Under the pieces are notes generated by a model. The model was not told the origin of the DNA and did no database searches. It was given only the letters and a program-made list of their open reading frames with translations. A stretch of DNA of 35,261 nt from Paludibacter sp. (GTDB lineage: Bacteria; Bacteroidota; Bacteroidia; Bacteroidales; Paludibacteraceae), in assembly GCA_013426815.1 (NCBI GenBank), contig JACDZH010000009.1, positions 1 to 35,261 on the forward strand, given 5' to 3'. The translations under genes were made by a program, and so were the position numbers. Of the stretch, positions 5,781 to 30,117 are shown one piece after another; the stretch's first letter is position 1, and each line of letters starts with the position of its first letter.

Positions 5781-6606
5781 AAGTATTTTTCCAATTTATG
5801 ATTTTAACAATGCGATTTATGTGTGGTTTTTCAAACACCTTACCATCAATTTTCACAACAGCTGTTTTAAGTGCTTTTATCTCCAATATCTTATCGTACA
5901 TTTTTTCAGCCTCTTCTACTTCTTTTTGTGTATAGTATTCTATTTCCTTAAGAAGTTTAAGTTGTTGGGGGTGTATAACGAACTTGCCATCAAACCCCAT
6001 ATCAAAAGCAATTAAACTATCTTCTTTAAATTCTTCGTCATACCCAATATTAACAGAAACAGTGTCTAAAGCCAATAAATTGAAGGCCTTAGCATGGTTC
6101 AAAACCATTTGTTTTGCAAAATACAGATTTGAATTCGTATGCTTCATCCCCATAGCATTGCAATAATCATGACTACCCAAGCCCAGAGCAGAAACTGTAA
6201 TTAATCCTTTACTTAATGTCTCATAAATTGAAAGTAAACCAGCAGGGTCTTCTAACAAAAGAATAAAGGACACTTCATTATTATACCTGTGATTTTCTAA
6301 AAAGGCATTTATCGCTTTAGCCTGTACAACACCACCAAATTTGGGGATAATGAATTGTCTAAAACCAATCTTTAGTAAGTTTTCGAAATCAATTTCATTT
6401 AAATTTTCATTTTCATCAAAAAAACGAAAACGAACGATATGATTTGGAACTAAATCTATAGATGTAAGATTTTGAAAACAGACTTCCATCTCATTACCTA
6501 AAATAGCATCTTCTAAATCGAAAATAATATAATCAGCTAATAAAACTTTACTCTTTTCAATAAATTTCAAGTTATTAGCAGGTACAAAAAAAAAGGATTT
6601 TAGCAT
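5767..6606 (-). CDS. CitE-like lyase, copy 2 (divergent)
   Basis: A 279-residue CitE-like protein, clearly distant from the copy at 4410-5315. It keeps FFFVPANN at 5-12, IFDLEDAI at 28-35, an Arg in VRFRF (59-61), the metal-binding Glu119 and Asp147, and FVIHPQQ in the C-terminal part. It differs at the signature sites: LLLEDP replaces the usual LETA, and LGSHDYCNAMG replaces FGxEDF. This suggests a different substrate from copy 1 or a non-catalytic partner. It is 21 bases from the acyltransferase upstream and overlaps the MaoC-like gene downstream. It may be one subunit of a heteromeric lyase, or act at a second step of the same acyl-CoA route. Confidence 0.8.
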   Translation of the reverse strand: MLKSFFFVPANNLKFIEKSKVLLADYIIFDLEDAILGNEMEVCFQNLTSIDLVPNHIVRFRFFDENENLNEIDFENLLKIGFRQFIIPKFGGVVQAKAINAFLENHRYNNEVSFILLLEDPAGLLSIYETLSKGLITVSALGLGSHDYCNAMGMKHTNSNLYFAKQMVLNHAKAFNLLALDTVSVNIGYDEEFKEDSLIAFDMGFDGKFVIHPQQLKLLKEIEYYTQKEVEEAEKMYDKILEIKALKTAVVKIDGKVFEKPHINRIVKIINWKNTYGSK

Positions 6607-13500: not shown

Positions 13501-13878
13501 TTATATATTTAAAAATCTTTTATGTATTAAACTTGATTCGCCAAAGTTAATCAATAGTCCTAACCGAACATTTGTTGCTTTTAAATAATTTATAAGTTGT
13601 GCATCGTGTTCAGGTAGTAGTTTTGAAGCAGCCTTTATTTCAACAATAATATCATCAAAACAAAAAAAATCAGCGAAAAATTTCTTATTTAACTTTAAAG
13701 TTCTATAATAAATATCGATTGGAGTTTGTGATAGGAAAGGCACATTGTCATCTTTAAGTTGAATCTCTAATGCCTCATGATATACAGATTCTAAAAAACC
13801 TGACCCCAGTTCAGAATGCACCTTCATGCAAGCACCTATTATTTTGTAACTCTCATCCTTGTATAAAATATCTGCCAT
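13501..13878 (-). CDS. GxxExxY family protein (PD-(D/E)XK-like)
   Basis: A 125-residue protein of the GxxExxY family. The name motif is Gly27-x2-Glu30-x2-Tyr33 in GSGFLESVY. A PD-(D/E)XK-like core follows: Asp70 in FFADFF, Glu80/Lys82 in IVEIKA, and a helix with Glu90, Gln94 and Tyr98. Length is normal for the family, whose function is not established. It lies alone between a decayed permease and a decayed ATPase, with a palindromic repeat array directly after its stop and an inverted part-copy of the repeat directly before its start. It therefore seems to travel with these repeats rather than serve the polysaccharide pathway. Confidence 0.88.
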   Translation of the reverse strand: MADILYKDESYKIIGACMKVHSELGSGFLESVYHEALEIQLKDDNVPFLSQTPIDIYYRTLKLNKKFFADFFCFDDIIVEIKAASKLLPEHDAQLINYLKATNVRLGLLINFGESSLIHKRFLNI

Positions 13879-20978: not shown

Positions 20979-22457
20979 TTATTCCACAATTGATTTCATG
21001 GCAGTCATAGCGGCACGCAATTTTGCACCACAAATTTCGACAGAATGGTTACGAATGGCAGCATTTATTTTCACCAATTCAAAGTTGTCAACGTGACCGG
21101 ATGCAGTTTCGTTAAAGTTTTTACCAATTATGTTGGTTTCTACTTTTTTCATAAAGTCGGCCAATAGTGGTTTACAGGCGTGGTCGAACAAATAGCAACC
21201 ATACTCAGCAGTGTCAGATATTACACGATTCATTTCGTACAATTTTTTACGAGCAATTGTGTTGGCAATTAATGGTGTTTCGTGCAAAGATTCATAGTAA
21301 GCTGACTCGTTTTTAATGCCTGAACAAGTCATGGTTTCGTAAGCCAACTCTACTCCTGATTTTACAAATGCAACCATCAACAAAGCGTTATCGAAATATT
21401 CCTGTTCAGAGATTTCAACGTCGCCCGCAGGAGTTTTTTCGAATGCAGTTTCGCCTGTTTCAGCCCTCCATTCCAATAAATTTTTGTCACCTAAAGCCCA
21501 GTCTTCCATCATGGTTTTGGAGAATCTGCCTGATAAAATATCGTCTATGTGTTTGATAAACAACGGACGCATAATATCTTTCAATTCGTCAGCCAATTTG
21601 TATGCTTCAATTTTGGACAGATTTGATAATCTATCCATCATGTTAGTGATTCCACCAATTTTTAACGCTTCTGTTATTGTTTCCCAGCCATATTGCACCA
21701 ATTTGGAGGCATAACCAGGGTAAATTCCTTTTTCTACCATTTTATTAAAACTCAGTATAGAACCGGTTTGCAACAATCCACAAAGAATGGTTTGTTCACC
21801 CATCAAATCTGATTTTACTTCAGCAACAAATGATGAAAGTAACACACCGGCTTTGTGACCACCAGTTCCAACGCAATATGCTTTAGCAATTTCGAGTCCA
21901 TCACCATTGGGATCATTATCGGTATGAACTGCAATCAATGTAGGAACACCAAAACCACGAAGATATTCGGCACGAACTTCAGTTGCAGGCGATTTTGGAG
22001 CCACCATAATAACAGTAATGTCCTTGCGGATTTGAGTGCCTTCTTCCACAATATTAAAACCATGCGAATATGCTAAACAAGAGCCTTTTTTCATCATATG
22101 CATAACTTGATTAACAACTGAAGTATGCTGTTTATCGGGTGCCAAATTCATCACCAAATCGGCAGTTGGAATTAATTCTTCGAAAGTTCCAACTACAAAA
22201 TTATTGTTAGAAGCATTGATAAAAGAAGCTTTTTTCTTATCAATTGAATCCTGACGCAACGCATAAGAAATATCCAAACCACTGTCGCGCATGTTAAGTC
22301 CCTGAGCTAAACCCTGAGCTCCACAACCTACAACTACAACTTTTTTTCCAATAAGTTTTTTAACACCATCAGCGAATTCGCTGCTTTGCATAAAATCACA
22401 TTTTCCAAGTTCCTGTACTTTCAGACGATAAGGAAGTGAGTTAAAATAATTTACCAT
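20979..22457 (-). CDS. ilvC: Ketol-acid reductoisomerase, class II
   Basis: A 492-residue protein, the long class II form with a duplicated C-terminal knot domain, very similar in layout to the E. coli enzyme. The NADPH-binding [19 protein letters not shown] lies near 42-60, the nucleotide-specificity ALRQDSI loop near 66, the metal-binding Asp and Glu in SDLMGEQ near 217-223, and the second metal/substrate block GVELAYETM near 390, with the serine of [11 protein letters not shown] after it. It converts acetolactate or acetohydroxybutyrate to the dihydroxy acid in Val/Ile/Leu synthesis. It is the last gene of the ilv operon, 103 bases after ilvN; that gap has no gene. Confidence 0.97.
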
Positions 22458-22560: not shown

Positions 22561-23112
22561 TTAATCCGTAATGTTGCCATATTTTTCTTGTATTGTATTC
22601 AGCATATCAGTCAGTCTTTCAACTGTAGAACGTGTTATTGCCACTCTTCCCGAGCGTATAAATTGTAAAACTCCAATTGAATCACTCAGTTCATCAAATA
22701 GTTTTTGGGTTTCATCATAATGTCCGGCCTTTTGCAGTACTATAAAATGTTCGTTCATTTCCATGATGCGAATATGGTATTTACGAATCAGGCTTTCTAT
22801 TGAGCCCAATGCCAAAACTTTAGCAGTTGAAACTTTATACAAAGCAATTTCCTGAAATATCAATTCATCGTCGGTATTAAAATAAGCTTTCAAAATATCT
22901 ACTCGTTTATCAATTTGTTGTACCACTTTGGTTACTTGGTCCAAGGTAGAGTATACTGTAATGGTAAACTTATGAATCCCTTTAATAGCTGATGGTGAAA
23001 CAGATAGTGTTTCAATATTTATGCTCCGACGAGTAAAAACAACTGTAACTTGTCCCAACACACCAACTGTATTTTCCGAAAATACGGTAATGGTATATAA
23101 TTTTCTTTCCAT
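22561..23112 (-). CDS. ilvN: Acetolactate synthase small (regulatory) subunit
   Basis: A 183-residue protein with an N-terminal ACT domain (about 4-75: YTITVFSENTVGVLGQV, then RRSINIETLSVS) and the C-terminal ALS_ss_C-type domain (about 90-170). The subunit binds valine and related end products and controls the catalytic subunit IlvB encoded just upstream. The gap of 110 bases to ilvB holds two REP-like palindromes. Length fits the longer bacterial form. Confidence 0.94.
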   Translation of the reverse strand: MERKLYTITVFSENTVGVLGQVTVVFTRRSINIETLSVSPSAIKGIHKFTITVYSTLDQVTKVVQQIDKRVDILKAYFNTDDELIFQEIALYKVSTAKVLALGSIESLIRKYHIRIMEMNEHFIVLQKAGHYDETQKLFDELSDSIGVLQFIRSGRVAITRSTVERLTDMLNTIQEKYGNITD

Positions 23113-23222: not shown

Positions 23223-24917
23223 TTACCCCAATAAAATATCACTCACGGATGCTCCGGTTGGAATCATCGGATAAACCATGCCTTTCATTTCCACATTTAC
23301 AACCAATAAATATGGTTTGTCATCTTTGAGCATATTGGCAATGGCTTCGTCCAGCTCTTCGCGTTTTCTTACTTCACTGCCATCAATTTTATATGCTTTC
23401 GCAATGGCGATAAAATCAGGGTTTTGCATTTTAGTGAACGAATAACGTTCTTCGAAAAACATTTCCTGCCATTGGCGTACCATTCCCAAAAAATGATTAT
23501 TGAGAATGACCATTTTAATGCCAATTTGCTCTTGCATAATGGTTCCGAGTTCTTGTATTGTCATTTGAAAACCCCCATCGCCAGCAAACATACAAACTGT
23601 TCGCTCTGGAGCTCCTATTTTGGCACCCATAGCAGCAGGAATTGCAAATCCCATAGTGCCTAAACCACCCGAAGTAACCGAACTACGGGTCTTAGTATAT
23701 TTGAAGTAGCGGGCTGCCATCATTTGGTTTTGTCCAACATCCGACACCATAATAGCCTCGTTATTAGTAGCTTCACTCACTTTGCGAATTACTTCGCCCA
23801 TGGTTATTTCGCCAAATGTAGGAAATACTTCTTTTAGTAATACTTTTTCAAATTCTCGTTCGTCATATTCCTTAAACGATTCTATCCATTCGGTATGCTT
23901 AGCATGCAGTATTTTATCAGTTAGTGCTGGCAATGTTTCTTTGGCAGTTCCTAATACAGGAGCATCCACTTTTACATTTTTGTTTATTTCAGCAAAATCA
24001 ATATCCAGGTGAATAATTTTTGCCTGCTTAGCATACCTAGATAAATCGCCTGTTACACGGTCGTCAAAACGCATTCCAATAGCAATTAGCACATCACACT
24101 CATTGGTCTTCATATTTGGTGCCACATTTCCGTGCATACCTAAAAATCCTTTGTTCAATTCAAAATCAGTAGACATTGCCGATGAACCCAGTAAAGTCCA
24201 AGCTGCAGGAATATTTCCTTTTTCCAAAAATGCTTTCAATTCATTTTCGGCATTGGCCAAAATAACACCCTGCCCCACTAATGCCAAAGGTTTTTTTGCT
24301 TGATTTATTAAGGCAGCTGCGGCGTTAATTTGGTCGTTGCTTACTTCTGGAATGGGGATATAGCTGCGAATAAATGTACAAGGCTTGTATTCGAAATCTA
24401 CTTTTTCGAACTGTGCATTTTTAGTAATGTCAAGAACCACTGGACCTGGTCTACCGCTACGAGATATATAAAATGCACGCGCAACTGCCCAAGCTATATC
24501 CTCCGCTTTACGTATTTGGTATGACCATTTGGTGATTGGTTGGGTAATACCAACCACGTCAATTTCTTGAAAAGCATCAGTTCCCAACAATAAAGCGCCA
24601 ACTTGTCCGGTAATTACAACAAGAGGCGTACTATCAATCATGGCGTCACCAATTCCAGTAATTGTATTGGTGGCGGCTGGTCCCGAAGTTACCAAACAAA
24701 CACCAACTTTGCCTGAAACACGAGCATAACCCTGCGCTGCATGTGTAGCACCTTGTTCGTGTCGGGTTAAAATATGATTTATATGTTTATCAAAATCATA
24801 TAAAGCATCAAATATCGGCATGATTGCGCCACCTGGATATCCGAATATAGTATCAACGCCTTCATTTAGAAGTGATTGAATAAAGGCATGAGAGCCTAAA
24901 ATTTTTTTTTCTATCAT
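23223..24917 (-). CDS. ilvB: Acetolactate synthase large (catalytic) subunit
   Basis: A 564-residue ThDP enzyme. FGYPGGAIMPIFDALY opens the Pyr domain, with the catalytic Glu54 in RHEQGA. The central FAD-type domain spans about 190-330, and the ThDP-binding motif starts with GDGGFQMTIQEL near 435 and ends with the NN of ILNNHFLGMVRQWQ. The domain order is normal for acetohydroxyacid synthases, which condense pyruvate with pyruvate or 2-oxobutyrate. Its start is only 2 bases from the stop of the GtrA-like gene, so in this genome ilvB translation appears coupled to a glycosylation gene, not to ilvD. Confidence 0.97.
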   Translation of the reverse strand: MIEKKILGSHAFIQSLLNEGVDTIFGYPGGAIMPIFDALYDFDKHINHILTRHEQGATHAAQGYARVSGKVGVCLVTSGPAATNTITGIGDAMIDSTPLVVITGQVGALLLGTDAFQEIDVVGITQPITKWSYQIRKAEDIAWAVARAFYISRSGRPGPVVLDITKNAQFEKVDFEYKPCTFIRSYIPIPEVSNDQINAAAALINQAKKPLALVGQGVILANAENELKAFLEKGNIPAAWTLLGSSAMSTDFELNKGFLGMHGNVAPNMKTNECDVLIAIGMRFDDRVTGDLSRYAKQAKIIHLDIDFAEINKNVKVDAPVLGTAKETLPALTDKILHAKHTEWIESFKEYDEREFEKVLLKEVFPTFGEITMGEVIRKVSEATNNEAIMVSDVGQNQMMAARYFKYTKTRSSVTSGGLGTMGFAIPAAMGAKIGAPERTVCMFAGDGGFQMTIQELGTIMQEQIGIKMVILNNHFLGMVRQWQEMFFEERYSFTKMQNPDFIAIAKAYKIDGSEVRKREELDEAIANMLKDDKPYLLVVNVEMKGMVYPMIPTGASVSDILLG

Positions 24918-24919
24918 AA

Positions 24920-25339
24920 TCAGTCCTTTTTCGTGAAAAGAATTTGTTTTTTAGCTAAAAAGTTCCATACAAAAACTATGGTTGTAGTTAGAATTTTGGA
25001 AAATAAATAATGTAATAATAATATTGATGTAAATAACCACATAAAAAAGGAGGTAAGTCCCATCCCAATAGTACCAATAATAATAAATATTGTGAGTTCA
25101 ATGAACTTGTTATCTTTACTTTTTTCATCAAAAACCCAAAAAATACTCATCAAATAAGTAATCACCAAACCAGCTGAAAATCCTGCAATTGATGATAATA
25201 AATAATGAACATGTGCATATTCCGTAAGCAAATATAATATCAACACGTCAACTACAAATGCTATCCCACCAGCAAAAAAATAACGAAGTAGCTGAATGTA
25301 AGCACTGTTAGCTTTCCCTAAAACAATTTTTTTTATCAT
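24920..25339 (-). CDS. GtrA-like membrane protein
   Basis: A 139-residue protein with four membrane helices and the GtrA family opening QLLRYFFAGGIAFVVDVLILYLL (about 16-38), plus the final FVWNFLAKKQILF block. GtrA-type proteins are thought to help move polyprenyl-phosphate-linked sugars across the inner membrane. It overlaps the polyprenyl-phosphate-sugar synthase-like gene upstream by 4 bases and ends 2 bases before ilvB. Together with the two genes upstream it forms a plausible three-part module: make the lipid-linked sugar, flip it, transfer it outside. Confidence 0.85.
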   Translation of the reverse strand: MIKKIVLGKANSAYIQLLRYFFAGGIAFVVDVLILYLLTEYAHVHYLLSSIAGFSAGLVITYLMSIFWVFDEKSKDNKFIELTIFIIIGTIGMGLTSFFMWLFTSILLLHYLFSKILTTTIVFVWNFLAKKQILFTKKD

Positions 25340-26076
25340 TTATACAATTTTGATTTCATCAAACCCCATTTACATAATCGATAAAAAATTGAAACCTTTA
25401 ACACGCCAAATCCGTAAATTGAACTTCTTATCAGATTAATAGAAGAGGCATTGTCAAAATATTTAGTTGGACAAGTAACTTCGCCAATTTCATAGTCGGA
25501 ATAAAAAATTTGTGCAATCATTTCATTATCAAACACAAAATCATCAGAATTTATATTATAATTAATATTTCTCAAAACCTCAGCCGAAAATGCTCTATAT
25601 CCAGAGTGATATTCCGAAAGTTTTTGTTTTAATAATATATTCTGAAAGAGTGTTAAAAACCTATTTGCAATGTACTTAATCTTAGGCATTCCTCCTTTTA
25701 AAGCACCATTACCTAAAATGCGCGATGCCAATACTACCGGATACAAATCGTTGGCAATGATATATGATATCGAATGGATAAGCTTTGGTGTGTATTGATA
25801 ATCCGGGTGCAACATAATCACTATGTCAGCACCAAGTTCCAAAGCACGGTTGTAACAAGTTTTTTGATTACCACCGTAACCTTTATTTTTTTCGTGAATC
25901 TGAATTTCTTTTATTCCTAATTCCATTGCTTTTGCTATAGTAAGATCCTTACTGCAATCATCTGTTAAAATTACCTCGTCAACAATATCAAAAGGAATTT
26001 CATTGTAGGTTTGTTCCAACGTCTTTTCAGCATTATATGCTGGCATTACAACAATTATTTTTTTTCCAAGAATCAT
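25336..26076 (-). CDS. Family 2 glycosyltransferase, polyprenyl-phosphate sugar synthase-like
   Basis: A 246-residue family 2 enzyme. IIVVMPAYNAEKTL at 7-20, ILTDDCSKD at 36-44 and KNKGYGGNQKTCYNRAL at 63-79 match the dolichol/undecaprenyl-phosphate mannose or glucose synthase group. HPDYQYTP (90-97) stands in place of the usual DADLQHPP acceptor/metal loop, and SEYHSGYRAFS near 150 matches the catalytic stretch. There is no C-terminal membrane pair, so flipping is probably left to the GtrA-like protein it overlaps. It likely makes a polyprenyl-phosphate sugar in the cytoplasm for the GT-C enzyme next door. The sugar is unknown. Confidence 0.85.
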   Translation of the reverse strand: MILGKKIIVVMPAYNAEKTLEQTYNEIPFDIVDEVILTDDCSKDLTIAKAMELGIKEIQIHEKNKGYGGNQKTCYNRALELGADIVIMLHPDYQYTPKLIHSISYIIANDLYPVVLASRILGNGALKGGMPKIKYIANRFLTLFQNILLKQKLSEYHSGYRAFSAEVLRNINYNINSDDFVFDNEMIAQIFYSDYEIGEVTCPTKYFDNASSINLIRSSIYGFGVLKVSIFYRLCKWGLMKSKLYK

Positions 26077-26230
26077 GGTTTGGTTATTGGTTAATTTTAA
26101 ATTAGTTAGGTGTTAATTGGTATTTTGGATAATTGGTATTAATTGAAATTGATTTTATTTACTTTTTAAGTTTTAATAAATTGAATTACAGCTTCATATC
26201 TCATACTAACTACTTTCCATTACCTTCCAA

Positions 26231-27892
26231 CTATTTTACAGGATTACGGACAAAAAATACAAACCCGTTTTTTTCATATAGTTTTTTGGAATCAGGTGCA
26301 TTTTTAGAAAATTCAATTACATTGCTCTTTGTATTTCTAAGAACATAATAACAAGGTTTAGTTAAAGTACTATGTAATAAAAATTCTTTATCATCACATT
26401 TGTTATCGGGTAATCTATCTGAATAAAAATAATGCGCATAACTCTTAAACATCGGTAATATGAAACAATCTTGCACCTTTTTGCTTTCATAAAATTCAAT
26501 AGCAGAAGCCTGACTGTATTTCTCTACTTGAGGTACTACAAAATAAATTGAAACTGATACGAAAAACAATGTTCCAATCATTAAATAAGTAAAAGTTTTA
26601 AGGTCAGGTGTTTTGCCAATCTTATTACAAAACAAAATTGTGAGTAATATAAGAATTAAACCAAATAATGGCTCAAAACCATACCAATGTGCCGTTGCTT
26701 GCATATTTCCGACTGTAAATTCGTCATTAATATATTGGAAAAGCATTGGTTTAATTATATCAAATAAAGTTACAATGGTTATCAAAATTCCAAAAAAAGA
26801 AGCAAGAATAATGAGCAAAATCTTCAAATAATTGTGGAACTTCACCTTTTTTTCTAGAACCTGATCAACAAACCATGCTGCTAAAAATGTGAGAGGGAAA
26901 TAACACATCGACGAATAATGGACTATTTTGGTACTTACAATTGTAAAAAGTATAAGTACAACCCAAAAAACAATCATCATCCATCTGAAAAAATGTGCCG
27001 TATGCACATCGGTTTCTTTTTTTAGCACTGACTTTCGGAATGTAGGTAATGCTAAAATAGATGCCGGAAAAACCCCAACAAATAAAATCACAAAATGATA
27101 TAGTAAAAAACCACCATGTCCGGCATCCTTAGTTTGAAACAACCGAATCTGATAATTTATAAAGTCTTGGATAATATTAAAATTTCCATTTAAAATAATA
27201 AGGACAAACCAAAAACATCCTACAACAGTTAAGATTGAAACAAACAACAAAACATGCATCCAATTATATTGCAATTTAAATCTGTTGATAATTAAGTATA
27301 CCCCAAAACTCAACAGGAAAATCAAAAATCCAACGGGACCCTTTGTTAGTATAGCTAAACCCAGAAACAATGCAGAATAGGAAATTTGTGAATAGCTATT
27401 TCCTTTATTATCAGGCGATGTAAACCTTACAAAATAATATATTCCCAAAAAAATAAATAGGTTAAACCATGGGTCGATTATACCTGTTTTAAAATAAAGA
27501 AAGGGCAAAATAGAACTAACATACAAAAGCATCCAAAGCAAACCAAATCGAGCATTCTTCAGCTTTAGTCCGATATTAAACAAAACGAGTAGTGTAATAA
27601 TACCACAAATCGCATTTGGGAAACGTGCAGCAAACTCATTGATACCAAAAATTTTCATAGAAAGTACTTGCATCCAAATAAACAACGGTGGTTTCTCCCA
27701 AAATGCCTCAAAATTTATTTGAACCGTTAAATAATTTCCACTTACAATCATCTCGCGAGCCGATTCAGCAAAGTTTATTTCATCCCAATCGAAAAGGTGT
27801 ACAATACCTAATCTGGGAATAAAAAGTAAAGACGCAAAAATGACTATTGCAAATTGAATGAATAATGAATTGTTTTTTAGGTTATTATACAT
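26231..27892 (-). CDS. GT-C membrane glycosyltransferase (ArnT/PMT-like)
   Basis: A 553-residue polytopic protein with about 11-12 membrane helices in the first 430 residues. The first outer loop carries the acidic DWDE motif (35-38) and the FWEKPPLFIW stretch (64-73), both typical of ArnT/PMT-type enzymes that use polyprenyl-phosphate sugars on the outer face of the inner membrane. The C-terminal 100 residues form a periplasmic domain. It lies 81 bases after ilvD and 154 bases before the next gene. The acceptor may be lipid A, another glycolipid or a protein. The gaps on either side contain nothing clear. Confidence 0.87.
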   Translation of the reverse strand: MYNNLKNNSLFIQFAIVIFASLLFIPRLGIVHLFDWDEINFAESAREMIVSGNYLTVQINFEAFWEKPPLFIWMQVLSMKIFGINEFAARFPNAICGIITLLVLFNIGLKLKNARFGLLWMLLYVSSILPFLYFKTGIIDPWFNLFIFLGIYYFVRFTSPDNKGNSYSQISYSALFLGLAILTKGPVGFLIFLLSFGVYLIINRFKLQYNWMHVLLFVSILTVVGCFWFVLIILNGNFNIIQDFINYQIRLFQTKDAGHGGFLLYHFVILFVGVFPASILALPTFRKSVLKKETDVHTAHFFRWMMIVFWVVLILFTIVSTKIVHYSSMCYFPLTFLAAWFVDQVLEKKVKFHNYLKILLIILASFFGILITIVTLFDIIKPMLFQYINDEFTVGNMQATAHWYGFEPLFGLILILLTILFCNKIGKTPDLKTFTYLMIGTLFFVSVSIYFVVPQVEKYSQASAIEFYESKKVQDCFILPMFKSYAHYFYSDRLPDNKCDDKEFLLHSTLTKPCYYVLRNTKSNVIEFSKNAPDSKKLYEKNGFVFFVRNPVK

Positions 27893-27973: not shown

Positions 27974-29854
27974 TTAGTCTACGATTCTTACCGCACCTTT
28001 GTCGGCGGAACTAACCATACTTGCATAAGCTCTCAGCGCTTTTGATACAACTCTGTTTCTATCTTTTGGTTTGAATGCATCTTTGCCACGGGATTCTTCA
28101 ACAAAACGACGTTTGAGTAATTCTACATCACTTAATTTTACATTGATGGTACGATTTGGAATATCTATTTCAATAATATCTCCATCAACAATTAATCCGA
28201 TATTTCCGCCCGAAGCTGCTTCGGGTGAAATATGACCTATTGACAATCCTGAAGTTCCTCCAGAGAAACGACCATCAGTTATCAACGCACAAGCTGCACC
28301 AAGATGTTTGGATTTTATATATGAAGTTGGATAAAGCATTTCCTGCATTCCGGGACCACCTTTTGGACCCTCGTGGGTTATTATTACCACATCGCCTGCA
28401 ACCACTTTTCCACTTAAAATTCCGGTGCAAGCAGTATCCTGAGATGTAAAAACTTTGGCAGGTCCACTGAATATCAAAATATTTTCATCAACACCGGCTG
28501 TTTTAATAACACAACCATCTTTTGCAATATTCCCCTTCAAGATGCCTAATCCACCATCTTTAGTGTAAGCATATTCAACACTACGAATACAACCGTTGAT
28601 ACGATTGTTGTCCAACTCGGGATATTGTACGTTTTGTGAACCCATTACTAAATTAAATCTGTTTGCGGGAGCACTTTTATAAATTTCAATCGCTTTGGAA
28701 ATTACCGTTGCTGTCGTAATATCATATTGTTCAATGGCATCGCCTAATGTTAATCCATCAACACGAAATACAGATTTATTAACCAAACCACCTTTACTCA
28801 ATTCGGCTAATATTCCCAAAATTCCACCGGCACGATTTACATCCTGAATGTGATATTTTTGAGAATTTGGAGCCACTTTACATAAACAAGGAGTTATGCG
28901 AGAAAGTTTATCCATATCGTCCATAGTCAATTCCACTTCTGCTTCGTGTGCAATGGCAAGAATATGTAAAACTGTATTTGTAGATCCACCCATGGCAATA
29001 TCCAGGGTCATTGCATTCAGAAATGCTTCGCGGGTTGCAATGTAACGTGGTAATACAGAATTATCGCCTTCGAAATAATATTTATTGGCATTGTCTACAA
29101 TCAATTTGGCCGCATCAACAAAAAGTTGAGTTCGATTGGCATGTGTTGCCACAATCGTTCCATTACCGGGTAATGCTAAGCCTATTGCTTCATTCAAACA
29201 ATTCATTGAATTTGCAGTAAACATGCCCGAACAAGAACCACAAGTAGGACAAGCTGCATTCTCAATTTTCTTTACTTGATCATCTGAAACATTTTCGTCA
29301 GCCGATTGCACCATAGCATCTACCAAATCAAGATGTTTTCCATCTAATTCGCCGGCTTCCATTGGTCCACCGGAAACAAAAACACAAGGAATATTCAATC
29401 GCATGGCAGCCATAAGCATACCCGGTGTAATTTTATCACAATTGCTGATACAAACCATTGCATCAGCTTTATGAGCGTTAACCATATATTCAACACTATC
29501 GGCAATCAAATCACGAGAAGGTAAGGAATATAACATACCATCATGCCCCATAGCTATACCATCATCTATAGCAATGGTGTTAAATTCGGCGGCAAAGCAA
29601 CCTAATTTTTCAATTTCAGCCTTTACCTTTTGACCAATTTCGTGCAAATGAACATGTCCTGGTACAAATTGAGTAAAAGAATTAACAATGGCAATAATCG
29701 GTTTCCCCATTTGCTTATCTGTCATTCCATTGGCACGCCAAAGTGAACGAGCTCCGGCCATTCTGCGACCACCGGTACTGGTTAAACTGCGAAGCCCCAC
29801 CAACCTCCCCGATGGGGAGGCTTTTAAGATAGTATCTGAATTATTTGTTTCCAT
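27974..29854 (-). CDS. ilvD: Dihydroxy-acid dehydratase
   Basis: A 626-residue Fe-S dehydratase, complete from [15 protein letters not shown] (30-44) to the [15 protein letters not shown] end. The cluster-binding cysteines are in VCISNCDK (about 135-139) and [11 protein letters not shown] (about 205-215). It makes the keto acids of valine and isoleucine from dihydroxy acids. The N-terminus is about 20 residues longer than typical enzymes, which begin shortly before [14 protein letters not shown]. Residues 10-22 of the extra part are encoded by a REP-like palindrome. The chosen ATG has the A-rich context usual here. No ATG lies between it and the conserved core. It is the first gene of the ilv unit, preceded by a leader peptide and terminator. 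Confidence 0.96.
29791..29825. repeat. REP-like palindrome inside the ilvD coding start
   Basis: The element has a core palindrome CCTCCCC-GAT-GGGGAGG (29804-29820) and, on the minus strand, the arrangement AAAGCCTCCCC-ATC-GGGGAGG followed by GTGGGGCTT. This is the same plan as the elements at 29875-29904, 23119-23150 and 23194-23222. It is read in frame as codons 10-22 of ilvD. Confidence 0.75.
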
Positions 29855-29874: not shown

Positions 29875-29904
29875 AAGTTCCCCCTTCGGGGGATTTAGGG
29901 AGCT
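29875..29904. repeat. REP-like palindrome upstream of ilvD
   Basis: AAGTTCCCCC-TTC-GGGGGATTTAGGGAGCT in plus orientation lies 21 bases upstream of the ilvD start and opposes the copy inside the gene. It is part of the ilvD leader transcript and can form a GC-rich hairpin just before the start codon. Confidence 0.75.
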
Positions 29905-29927: not shown

Positions 29928-29962
29928 AAAAACCTTTCTCCATTATGGTGAGAAAGGTTTTT
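29928..29962 (-). terminator. Attenuator-type terminator in the ilvD leader
   Basis: A perfect 13-base stem, AAAAACCTTTCTC against GAGAAAGGTTTTT, with a 9-base loop, ends in a T-run on the minus strand and continues T-rich. It lies between the leader peptide stop (29999) and the ilvD start (29854), so the ilv transcript must read through it. It could also work weakly for the plus strand, but no plus-strand gene ends here. Confidence 0.85.
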
Positions 29963-29998
29963 CTGTATTTTTACATACATTTTATTACATAACCATCC

Positions 29999-30067
29999 TC
30001 ACTTCTGATTTTTGACAAAAAGAAGGACGAAGTGTACGAGAATAATATTTAGATGTTGAAGAGTCAC
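29999..30067 (-). CDS. Candidate ilv leader peptide
   Basis: A 22-codon frame starts at GTG (30065-30067), directly after an in-frame TAA one codon upstream, and ends at TGA (29999-30001). Ten codons specify branched-chain residues: Leu at 3 and 6, Ile-Ile-Leu-Val at 8-11, Val-Leu-Leu at 14-16 and Val at 18. A 6-base hairpin, CACTTC against GAAGTG (30000-30034), covers the distal codons. The -7 promoter element lies 20 bases upstream and the 13-base terminator stem follows 36 bases after the stop. This is the layout of amino-acid-sensing transcription attenuation. The GTG start has no visible ribosome binding site. Confidence 0.65.
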   Translation of the reverse strand: MTLQHLNIILVHFVLLFVKNQK

Positions 30068-30086
30068 GTTTTAGTTATATTGGATG

Positions 30087-30117
30087 CAAAGATAAGGCAA
30101 GAATTTGATTCGACAAA
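30087..30117 (-). promoter_or_regulatory. Promoter of the ilv operon
   Basis: On the minus strand TTTG (30114-30117) is followed after 19 bases by TATCTTTG (30087-30094), a full match to the Bacteroidetes -33/-7 consensus. A start near 30080 would place the leader peptide GTG about 13 bases into the transcript and gives a leader of about 225 bases to ilvD. Confidence 0.75.

Follow-up and report, generated by a model that had tools for sequence, protein, structure and literature searches.

The sequence upstream of ilvD in Paludibacter sp. (Bacteroidales; Paludibacteraceae) very probably encodes a transcription attenuator that, like those of the trp/ilv type, is governed by a translating ribosome. 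It was found in contig JACDZH010000009.1 of assembly GCA_013426815.1, in a stretch of 35,261 nt that was analysed as a whole and is called the window below. A short ORF, promoter and terminator sequences, alternative pairings, conservation in relatives and a match between leader codons and operon product are directly observed at this site. The original prediction had interpreted the site as an attenuator controlled by ribosome stalling. The conserved frame, the Ile/Leu/Val codons, the terminator and the antiterminator in relatives support this interpretation at the level of sequence.

The ilvD leader and its operon

On the minus strand, the sequence upstream of ilvD contains, from 5′ to 3′, a promoter, a leader ORF, a hairpin over the distal codons of this ORF and a terminator (Table 1), all where the original prediction had placed them. 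The four genes ilvD, ilvB, ilvN and ilvC, assigned by Pfam and NCBIfam, are on the same strand as the leader. The interval between ilvD and ilvB (24920-27892, minus strand) holds three genes, encoding a PMT_2-type mannosyltransferase, a family 2 glycosyltransferase and a GtrA-like protein. Besides the Paludibacter window, a PMT_2 gene was seen at four other loci (L023, L026, L042 and L052), and ilvB was present in the short stretch downstream of ilvD at 81 of 110 fetched loci. Elsewhere in the window (13501-13878, minus strand), a gene of the PD-(D/E)XK nuclease superfamily (PDDEXK_3) is flanked by two genes for ABC-2 type membrane proteins.

Table 1. Positions in the window of the ilvD leader elements and of the ilv genes
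Feature	Position	Strand	Remarks
Promoter -33 element, TTTG	30114..30117	-	Sequence read; TTG conserved in relatives
Promoter -7 element, TATCTTTG	30087..30094	-	Sequence read; TANNTTTG in relatives
Leader ORF, 22 codons, MTLQHLNIILVHFVLLFVKNQK	29999..30067	-	GTG start 30067-30065, stop TGA 30001-29999
Region 1, protector hairpin 5′ arm	30016..30030	-	Covers leader codons 13-18; from fold
Region 2 as protector hairpin 3′ arm	29993..30007	-	14 pairs with region 1; from fold
Region 2, antiterminator 5′ arm, GUGAGGAUGGUU	29991..30002	-	Overlaps leader stop codon
Region 3, terminator 5′ arm and antiterminator 3′ arm, AACCUUUCUCAC	29948..29959	-	Folding
Intrinsic terminator, regions 3 and 4, AAAAACCTTTCTC-ACCATAATG-GAGAAAGGTTTTT	29928..29962	-	13-bp stem, 9-nt loop, U-rich 3′ end
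ilvD, dihydroxy-acid dehydratase	27974..29854	-	Pfam and NCBIfam
ilvB, acetolactate synthase large subunit	23223..24917	-	Pfam and NCBIfam
ilvN, acetolactate synthase small subunit	22561..23112	-	Pfam and NCBIfam
ilvC, ketol-acid reductoisomerase	20979..22457	-	Pfam and NCBIfam

The two promoter elements, TTTG and TATCTTTG, are separated by a spacer of 19 nt and together form what we take to be a Bacteroidota-type promoter. The pattern occurs four times in the window, compared with 2.4 occurrences expected by chance. As predicted, ten of the 22 codons of the GTG-started leader specify Ile, Leu or Val. Among 5000 shuffled versions of the leader sequence, 588 also hold an ORF with at least ten such codons. 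Neither the leader ORF nor the promoter, each taken alone, is therefore beyond chance, and their significance rests on the relatives. The proposed GTG start aligns codon by codon with the ATG of the leaders at four related loci (L003, L005, L006 and L032), and the register of the stop codon is identical. This supports GTG as the start codon, from which the leader would be translated.

The terminator has all 13 positions of its arms, AAAAACCTTTCTC and GAGAAAGGTTTTT, paired, confirming the perfect stem of the original prediction, and it begins 36 nt after the leader stop. A simple terminator scan overlooks this main hairpin because the scan allows loops of up to 8 nt and the loop here has 9. The leader RNA as a whole folds at -36.2 kcal/mol, compared with a mean of -21.1 for 200 dinucleotide shuffles (z -4.18), none of which folds as well.

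Folding of the leader for alternative structures, which had been suggested together with the original prediction, gave three pairings. The hairpin over the distal leader codons was found as described and has 14 pairs; we refer to it as the protector. The original prediction had recognized no convincing antiterminator, only a 5-base GTGAG/CTCAC match. This has to be corrected, as GUGAGGAUGGUU and AACCUUUCUCAC pair at 11 of 12 positions, one of these pairs being G.U, with a U.U mismatch at the remaining position. This antiterminator is the minimum fold of the RNA without region 4, and 2 of 200 shuffles fold equally well. The pairings 1:2, 2:3 and 3:4 are mutually exclusive in the window. The Paludibacter leader thus has the 1:2, 2:3, 3:4 anatomy that also characterizes the trp and ilv attenuators of enteric bacteria.

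Between the attenuator and ilvD there is a second terminator-like hairpin, a GC-rich palindromic repeat at 29879-29893 (minus strand). Another GC-rich palindromic repeat, at about 29788-29818 (minus strand), falls within the ilvD frame, at its 5′ end. A 16-mer related to these repeats has 15 exact copies in the genome and 44 with at most one mismatch, the reversed control giving 26. In the same genome, leuA and trpE likewise carry copies at their 5′ ends.

Conservation of the leader in relatives

Of 101 family genomes, 64 yielded an IlvD, the genome studied here among them, and the upstream sequence of all 64 was used (in one case only 425 bases). A further 80 loci came from the genome collection, as the best 80 of at least 596 matching stretches. 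In total there were 145 loci, some of them duplicates, and 76 passed a mechanical terminator rule. After removal of L001 (identical to L002) and of the duplicates L025, L031, L042 and L140, 71 distinct loci were kept.

A leader was picked by rule at 69 of the 71 loci. At least 40% of its codons specify Ile, Leu or Val at 61 of these 69, compared with 10.6% of ORFs from shuffled sequence, and it starts with ATG at 65 of the 69. Some of the picks behind these counts look wrong (for example L015 and L210; L006 is cut short) and were kept. The rule also misreads the GTG leader of the window, which counts there as a miss and was entered by hand for the promoter and codon counts. The motif TANNTTTG stands 10-50 nt before the leader start at 59 of 67 loci, compared with 3.4% in the shuffled control, and TTG is found 17-23 nt before TANNTTTG at 53 of 67. 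At two loci, L023 and L026, the terminator is not accompanied by a convincing leader. The rule-picked leaders of L047, L051 and L066 run about 24 nt beyond the start of region 2, so that translation to their end would carry the ribosome across region 2. Outside the Ile/Leu/Val run the leader sequence is highly variable, and the position of the stop codon relative to region 2 differs between relatives.

Among the family loci, the terminator rule was satisfied by 39 of 64 and failed at 25. Of five of these 25 that were sorted by eye, two (L013 and L018) retain the element, and in the printed stretches of the other three (L017, L028 and L030) no element was seen. The comparison with relatives that the original prediction had proposed thus favours it as regards the Ile/Leu/Val-rich leaders, the promoter and the covariation described below, and counts against it at the family loci where the rule failed.

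Covariation of the alternative pairings

Two alignments were used. A1 contains 68 of the 71 loci; it excludes L080, L083 and L089, for which the hairpin chosen by the rule lay about 250-300 nt upstream of ilvD. A2 contains 19 loci hand-picked for similar leaders. The terminator covaries across the Bacteroidales, and so does the antiterminator, less strongly. In A1, 96.2% of the terminator cells are paired (shuffled, 92.4%), and 10 of its 12 pairs show changes on both sides, compared with a shuffled mean of 2.8. For the antiterminator in A1, 79.8% of the cells are paired, compared with 76.7% in shuffles and 46-58% when slid. Its covariation score of 0.194 (shuffled, 0.159) was reached by none of 500 shuffles. 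Five antiterminator pairs changed on both sides and 16 further pair types were counted in A1, neither number being above that of the shuffles. Among the 19 close relatives of A2 the antiterminator is 97.6% paired, with no pair changed on both sides.

The antiterminator was also assessed with no preselection of region 2. The pairing of the upstream segment with its own arm scored 22.24 on average, compared with 18.32 for the arms of other loci, a difference reached by none of 20,000 permutations, and 63 of the 71 upstream segments score higher with their own arm than with different arms; kinship between the loci inflates these values, as it does all permutation tests and counts in this study. 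The protector was examined at the 63 of 71 loci with an antiterminator score of at least 17. Across these 63 loci its own pairing is stronger than cross pairing (-12.6 and -10.3 kcal/mol; 0 of 20,000 permutations). At only 20 of the 63 does it beat shuffled segments at 0.05, the value for the window being 0.11, and its covariation score on the close alignment is below that of most shuffles.

Leader codons, the leuA site and distribution

The codons of the leaders correspond to what the operons make. Among the 101 family genomes, 66 have LeuA; 30 loci were fetched, and 24 yielded a terminator and a leader. Val codons number 145 in 35 family ilvD leaders, none of which lacks Val, and 3 in the 24 leuA leaders, of which 21 lack Val; as the genomes are related, the independent events are fewer than these counts. 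In all 18 genomes with both leaders (one of them, L140, with the leader entered by hand), the ilvD leader is richer in Val than the leuA leader.

A covariance model built from A1 finds two strong sites in the Paludibacter genome, the ilvD leader (86 bits) and a site upstream of leuA (53 bits). The genome has 11 matches at E ≤1: these two sites, two matches on their opposite strand and seven weak ones (E 0.098-0.83). Two of the weak matches were read, and by eye they show a terminator-like hairpin with no such leader. The leuA site has the same type of promoter, an ATG leader MNRNFLHILLLGIILLQNK, an antiterminator and a terminator. Its antiterminator folds at -14.5 kcal/mol (z -3.29), a stability reached by 2 of 200 shuffles. 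In the stretch read upstream of hisG in the same genome there is no such leader; trpE is located close to a contig end.

The leu genes of Paludibacter are in the order leuA, leuC, a GxxExxY gene, leuD, a citramalate-synthase-like gene and leuB. The GxxExxY-protein gene between leuC and leuD is at 6002-6385 (minus strand) of the locus L224 in this genome. The citramalate-synthase-like gene scores 649 bits with the citramalate synthase model, below the cut-off of 950, and 336 with the best LeuA model. A Leu/Ile leader nearly devoid of Val would fit an operon that makes leucine and perhaps a precursor of isoleucine. We consider it fairly probable that in the Bacteroidales one related attenuator stands before two branched-chain operons and that the two are told apart by their leader codons: Val, Leu and Ile before ilvD, and Leu and Ile with almost no Val before leuA, whose operon includes the citramalate-synthase-like gene in Paludibacter.

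In the order as a whole, the model matched 115 of 198 Bacteroidales genomes at E ≤0.01, the E-values being rough and some of the genomes possibly sharing a species with the loci used to build the model. The best match in the 29 best-scoring other genomes lies before ilvD in 26 cases, before leuA in two, and in one before an ilvB-like gene for a TPP enzyme that carries acetolactate synthase domains. The 26 ilvD cases include L184, whose product is 36% identical to IlvD of Paludibacter.

Proposed mechanism and alternative explanations

Classic amino acid attenuators combine an ORF rich in codons for the operon product with a terminator and an antiterminator. All three are found here, the antiterminator with partial covariation. 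In the proposed mechanism, a ribosome would start at the GTG codon and trail RNA polymerase along the 22-codon leader. With ample charged Ile-, Leu- and Val-tRNA, it would proceed to the stop codon and cover region 2. Region 3 would then be free to pair with region 4 as the terminator, and transcription in the cell would stop before ilvD. A shortage of one of these tRNAs should have the opposite effect. The ribosome would stall over or just before region 1 (approximately codons 8-18), region 2 would stay out of the protector and pair with region 3, and with this antiterminator in place the polymerase would continue into ilvD and probably ilvBNC. If the leader is left untranslated, the protector and the terminator would form and transcription would stop.

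Theoretically, the hairpin could instead be a constitutive terminator that closes an independent unit, a short RNA or a small gene, with ilvD transcribed from its own downstream promoter and the leader playing no regulatory role. Judged by its sequence, the stem is indeed a terminator. However, no TTTG occurs in the sequence read between 29927 and ilvD, and hence there is no Bacteroidota-type promoter there. Furthermore, a constitutive terminator needs no upstream partner, yet a matching region 2 has been kept for its 5′ arm, and the leader codons follow the downstream operon. This explanation is therefore improbable.

Even less probable is a leader RNA sensed by uncharged tRNA, as in a T-box, or by a protein, the short ORF being incidental. 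T-boxes and RNA-binding proteins also work through terminator/antiterminator pairs. However, no Rfam family, with T-box and leader families included, matches the whole window at its gathering score. None of the eight weak matches in the leader (for example Phe_leader, RF01859, with 19 bits against a threshold of 55) is a T-box, and the ORF, its register and its codon content are conserved. Finally, the idea that the short ORF encodes a functional small hydrophobic peptide, control of ilvD being a side matter, agrees with the hydrophobic nature of leader peptides but hardly with the variation outside the Ile/Leu/Val run, with the shifting stop position or with the near absence of Val, an equally hydrophobic residue, from leuA leaders, and we give it the least credence of all.

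Comparison with known systems

The trp, ilv and leu attenuators of Escherichia coli and Salmonella are leader-peptide attenuators. The Paludibacter element, with very high probability an attenuator of this kind, resembles them in having a short ORF rich in product codons together with a putative protector, an antiterminator and a terminator, and it resembles the ilv and leu leaders in its place upstream of branched-chain amino acid genes. Unlike the enteric leaders, it has a different sequence, a Bacteroidota promoter, a GTG start and an antiterminator built with the stop-codon region, and none of the enteric leader models in Rfam matches the window.

A comparative analysis of attenuation, published by Lopatovskaya, Seliverstov and Lyubetsky in 2010, may cover Bacteroidetes. 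Leader-peptide attenuation has been reported for amino acid operons of Flavobacterium psychrophilum (PMC9723704). The phylum, the proposed mechanism and the type of operon are shared with Paludibacter. The class is different, and the main text of that report contains no occurrence of ilv, and its passages on attenuation describe no antiterminator anatomy. In Bacteroides thetaiotaomicron, which belongs to the same order, short ORFs in long 5′ UTRs were described as reminiscent of leader peptides (PMC7366714); the example is BT_4401, and ilv does not occur in the main text. In other phyla, a short ORF or attenuator peptide likewise controls ilv, as reported for the uORF in the ilvB leader of Corynebacterium (PMC10272879) and for the leucine-rich peptide of the ilv attenuator in Staphylococcus aureus (PMC5794164). 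The kind of mechanism is thus already known, also within the phylum. No description of an ilvD/leuA leader family in Bacteroidales was seen among the literature matches listed, which were covered by titles and the starts of abstracts, with most subscription journals outside.

Implications

With this element, the ilv and leu operons in many Bacteroidales gain a conserved candidate regulatory RNA, which in the window stays below the Rfam thresholds. The short leader genes may have been overlooked by annotation. Ribosome and RNA polymerase are reported to be uncoupled in Bacillus, and for bacteria beyond Bacillus and E. coli, this lineage among them, their coupling is described as not settled (PMC10931766). 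A leader-peptide attenuator that has been kept by selection would imply that the ribosome can keep pace with RNA polymerase in the lineage. The ribosomes of Bacteroidota hide the anti-Shine-Dalgarno sequence. If one related attenuator does stand before both operons across the order, the Bacteroidales would be a lineage in which ribosomes are coupled to RNA polymerase on their leaders.
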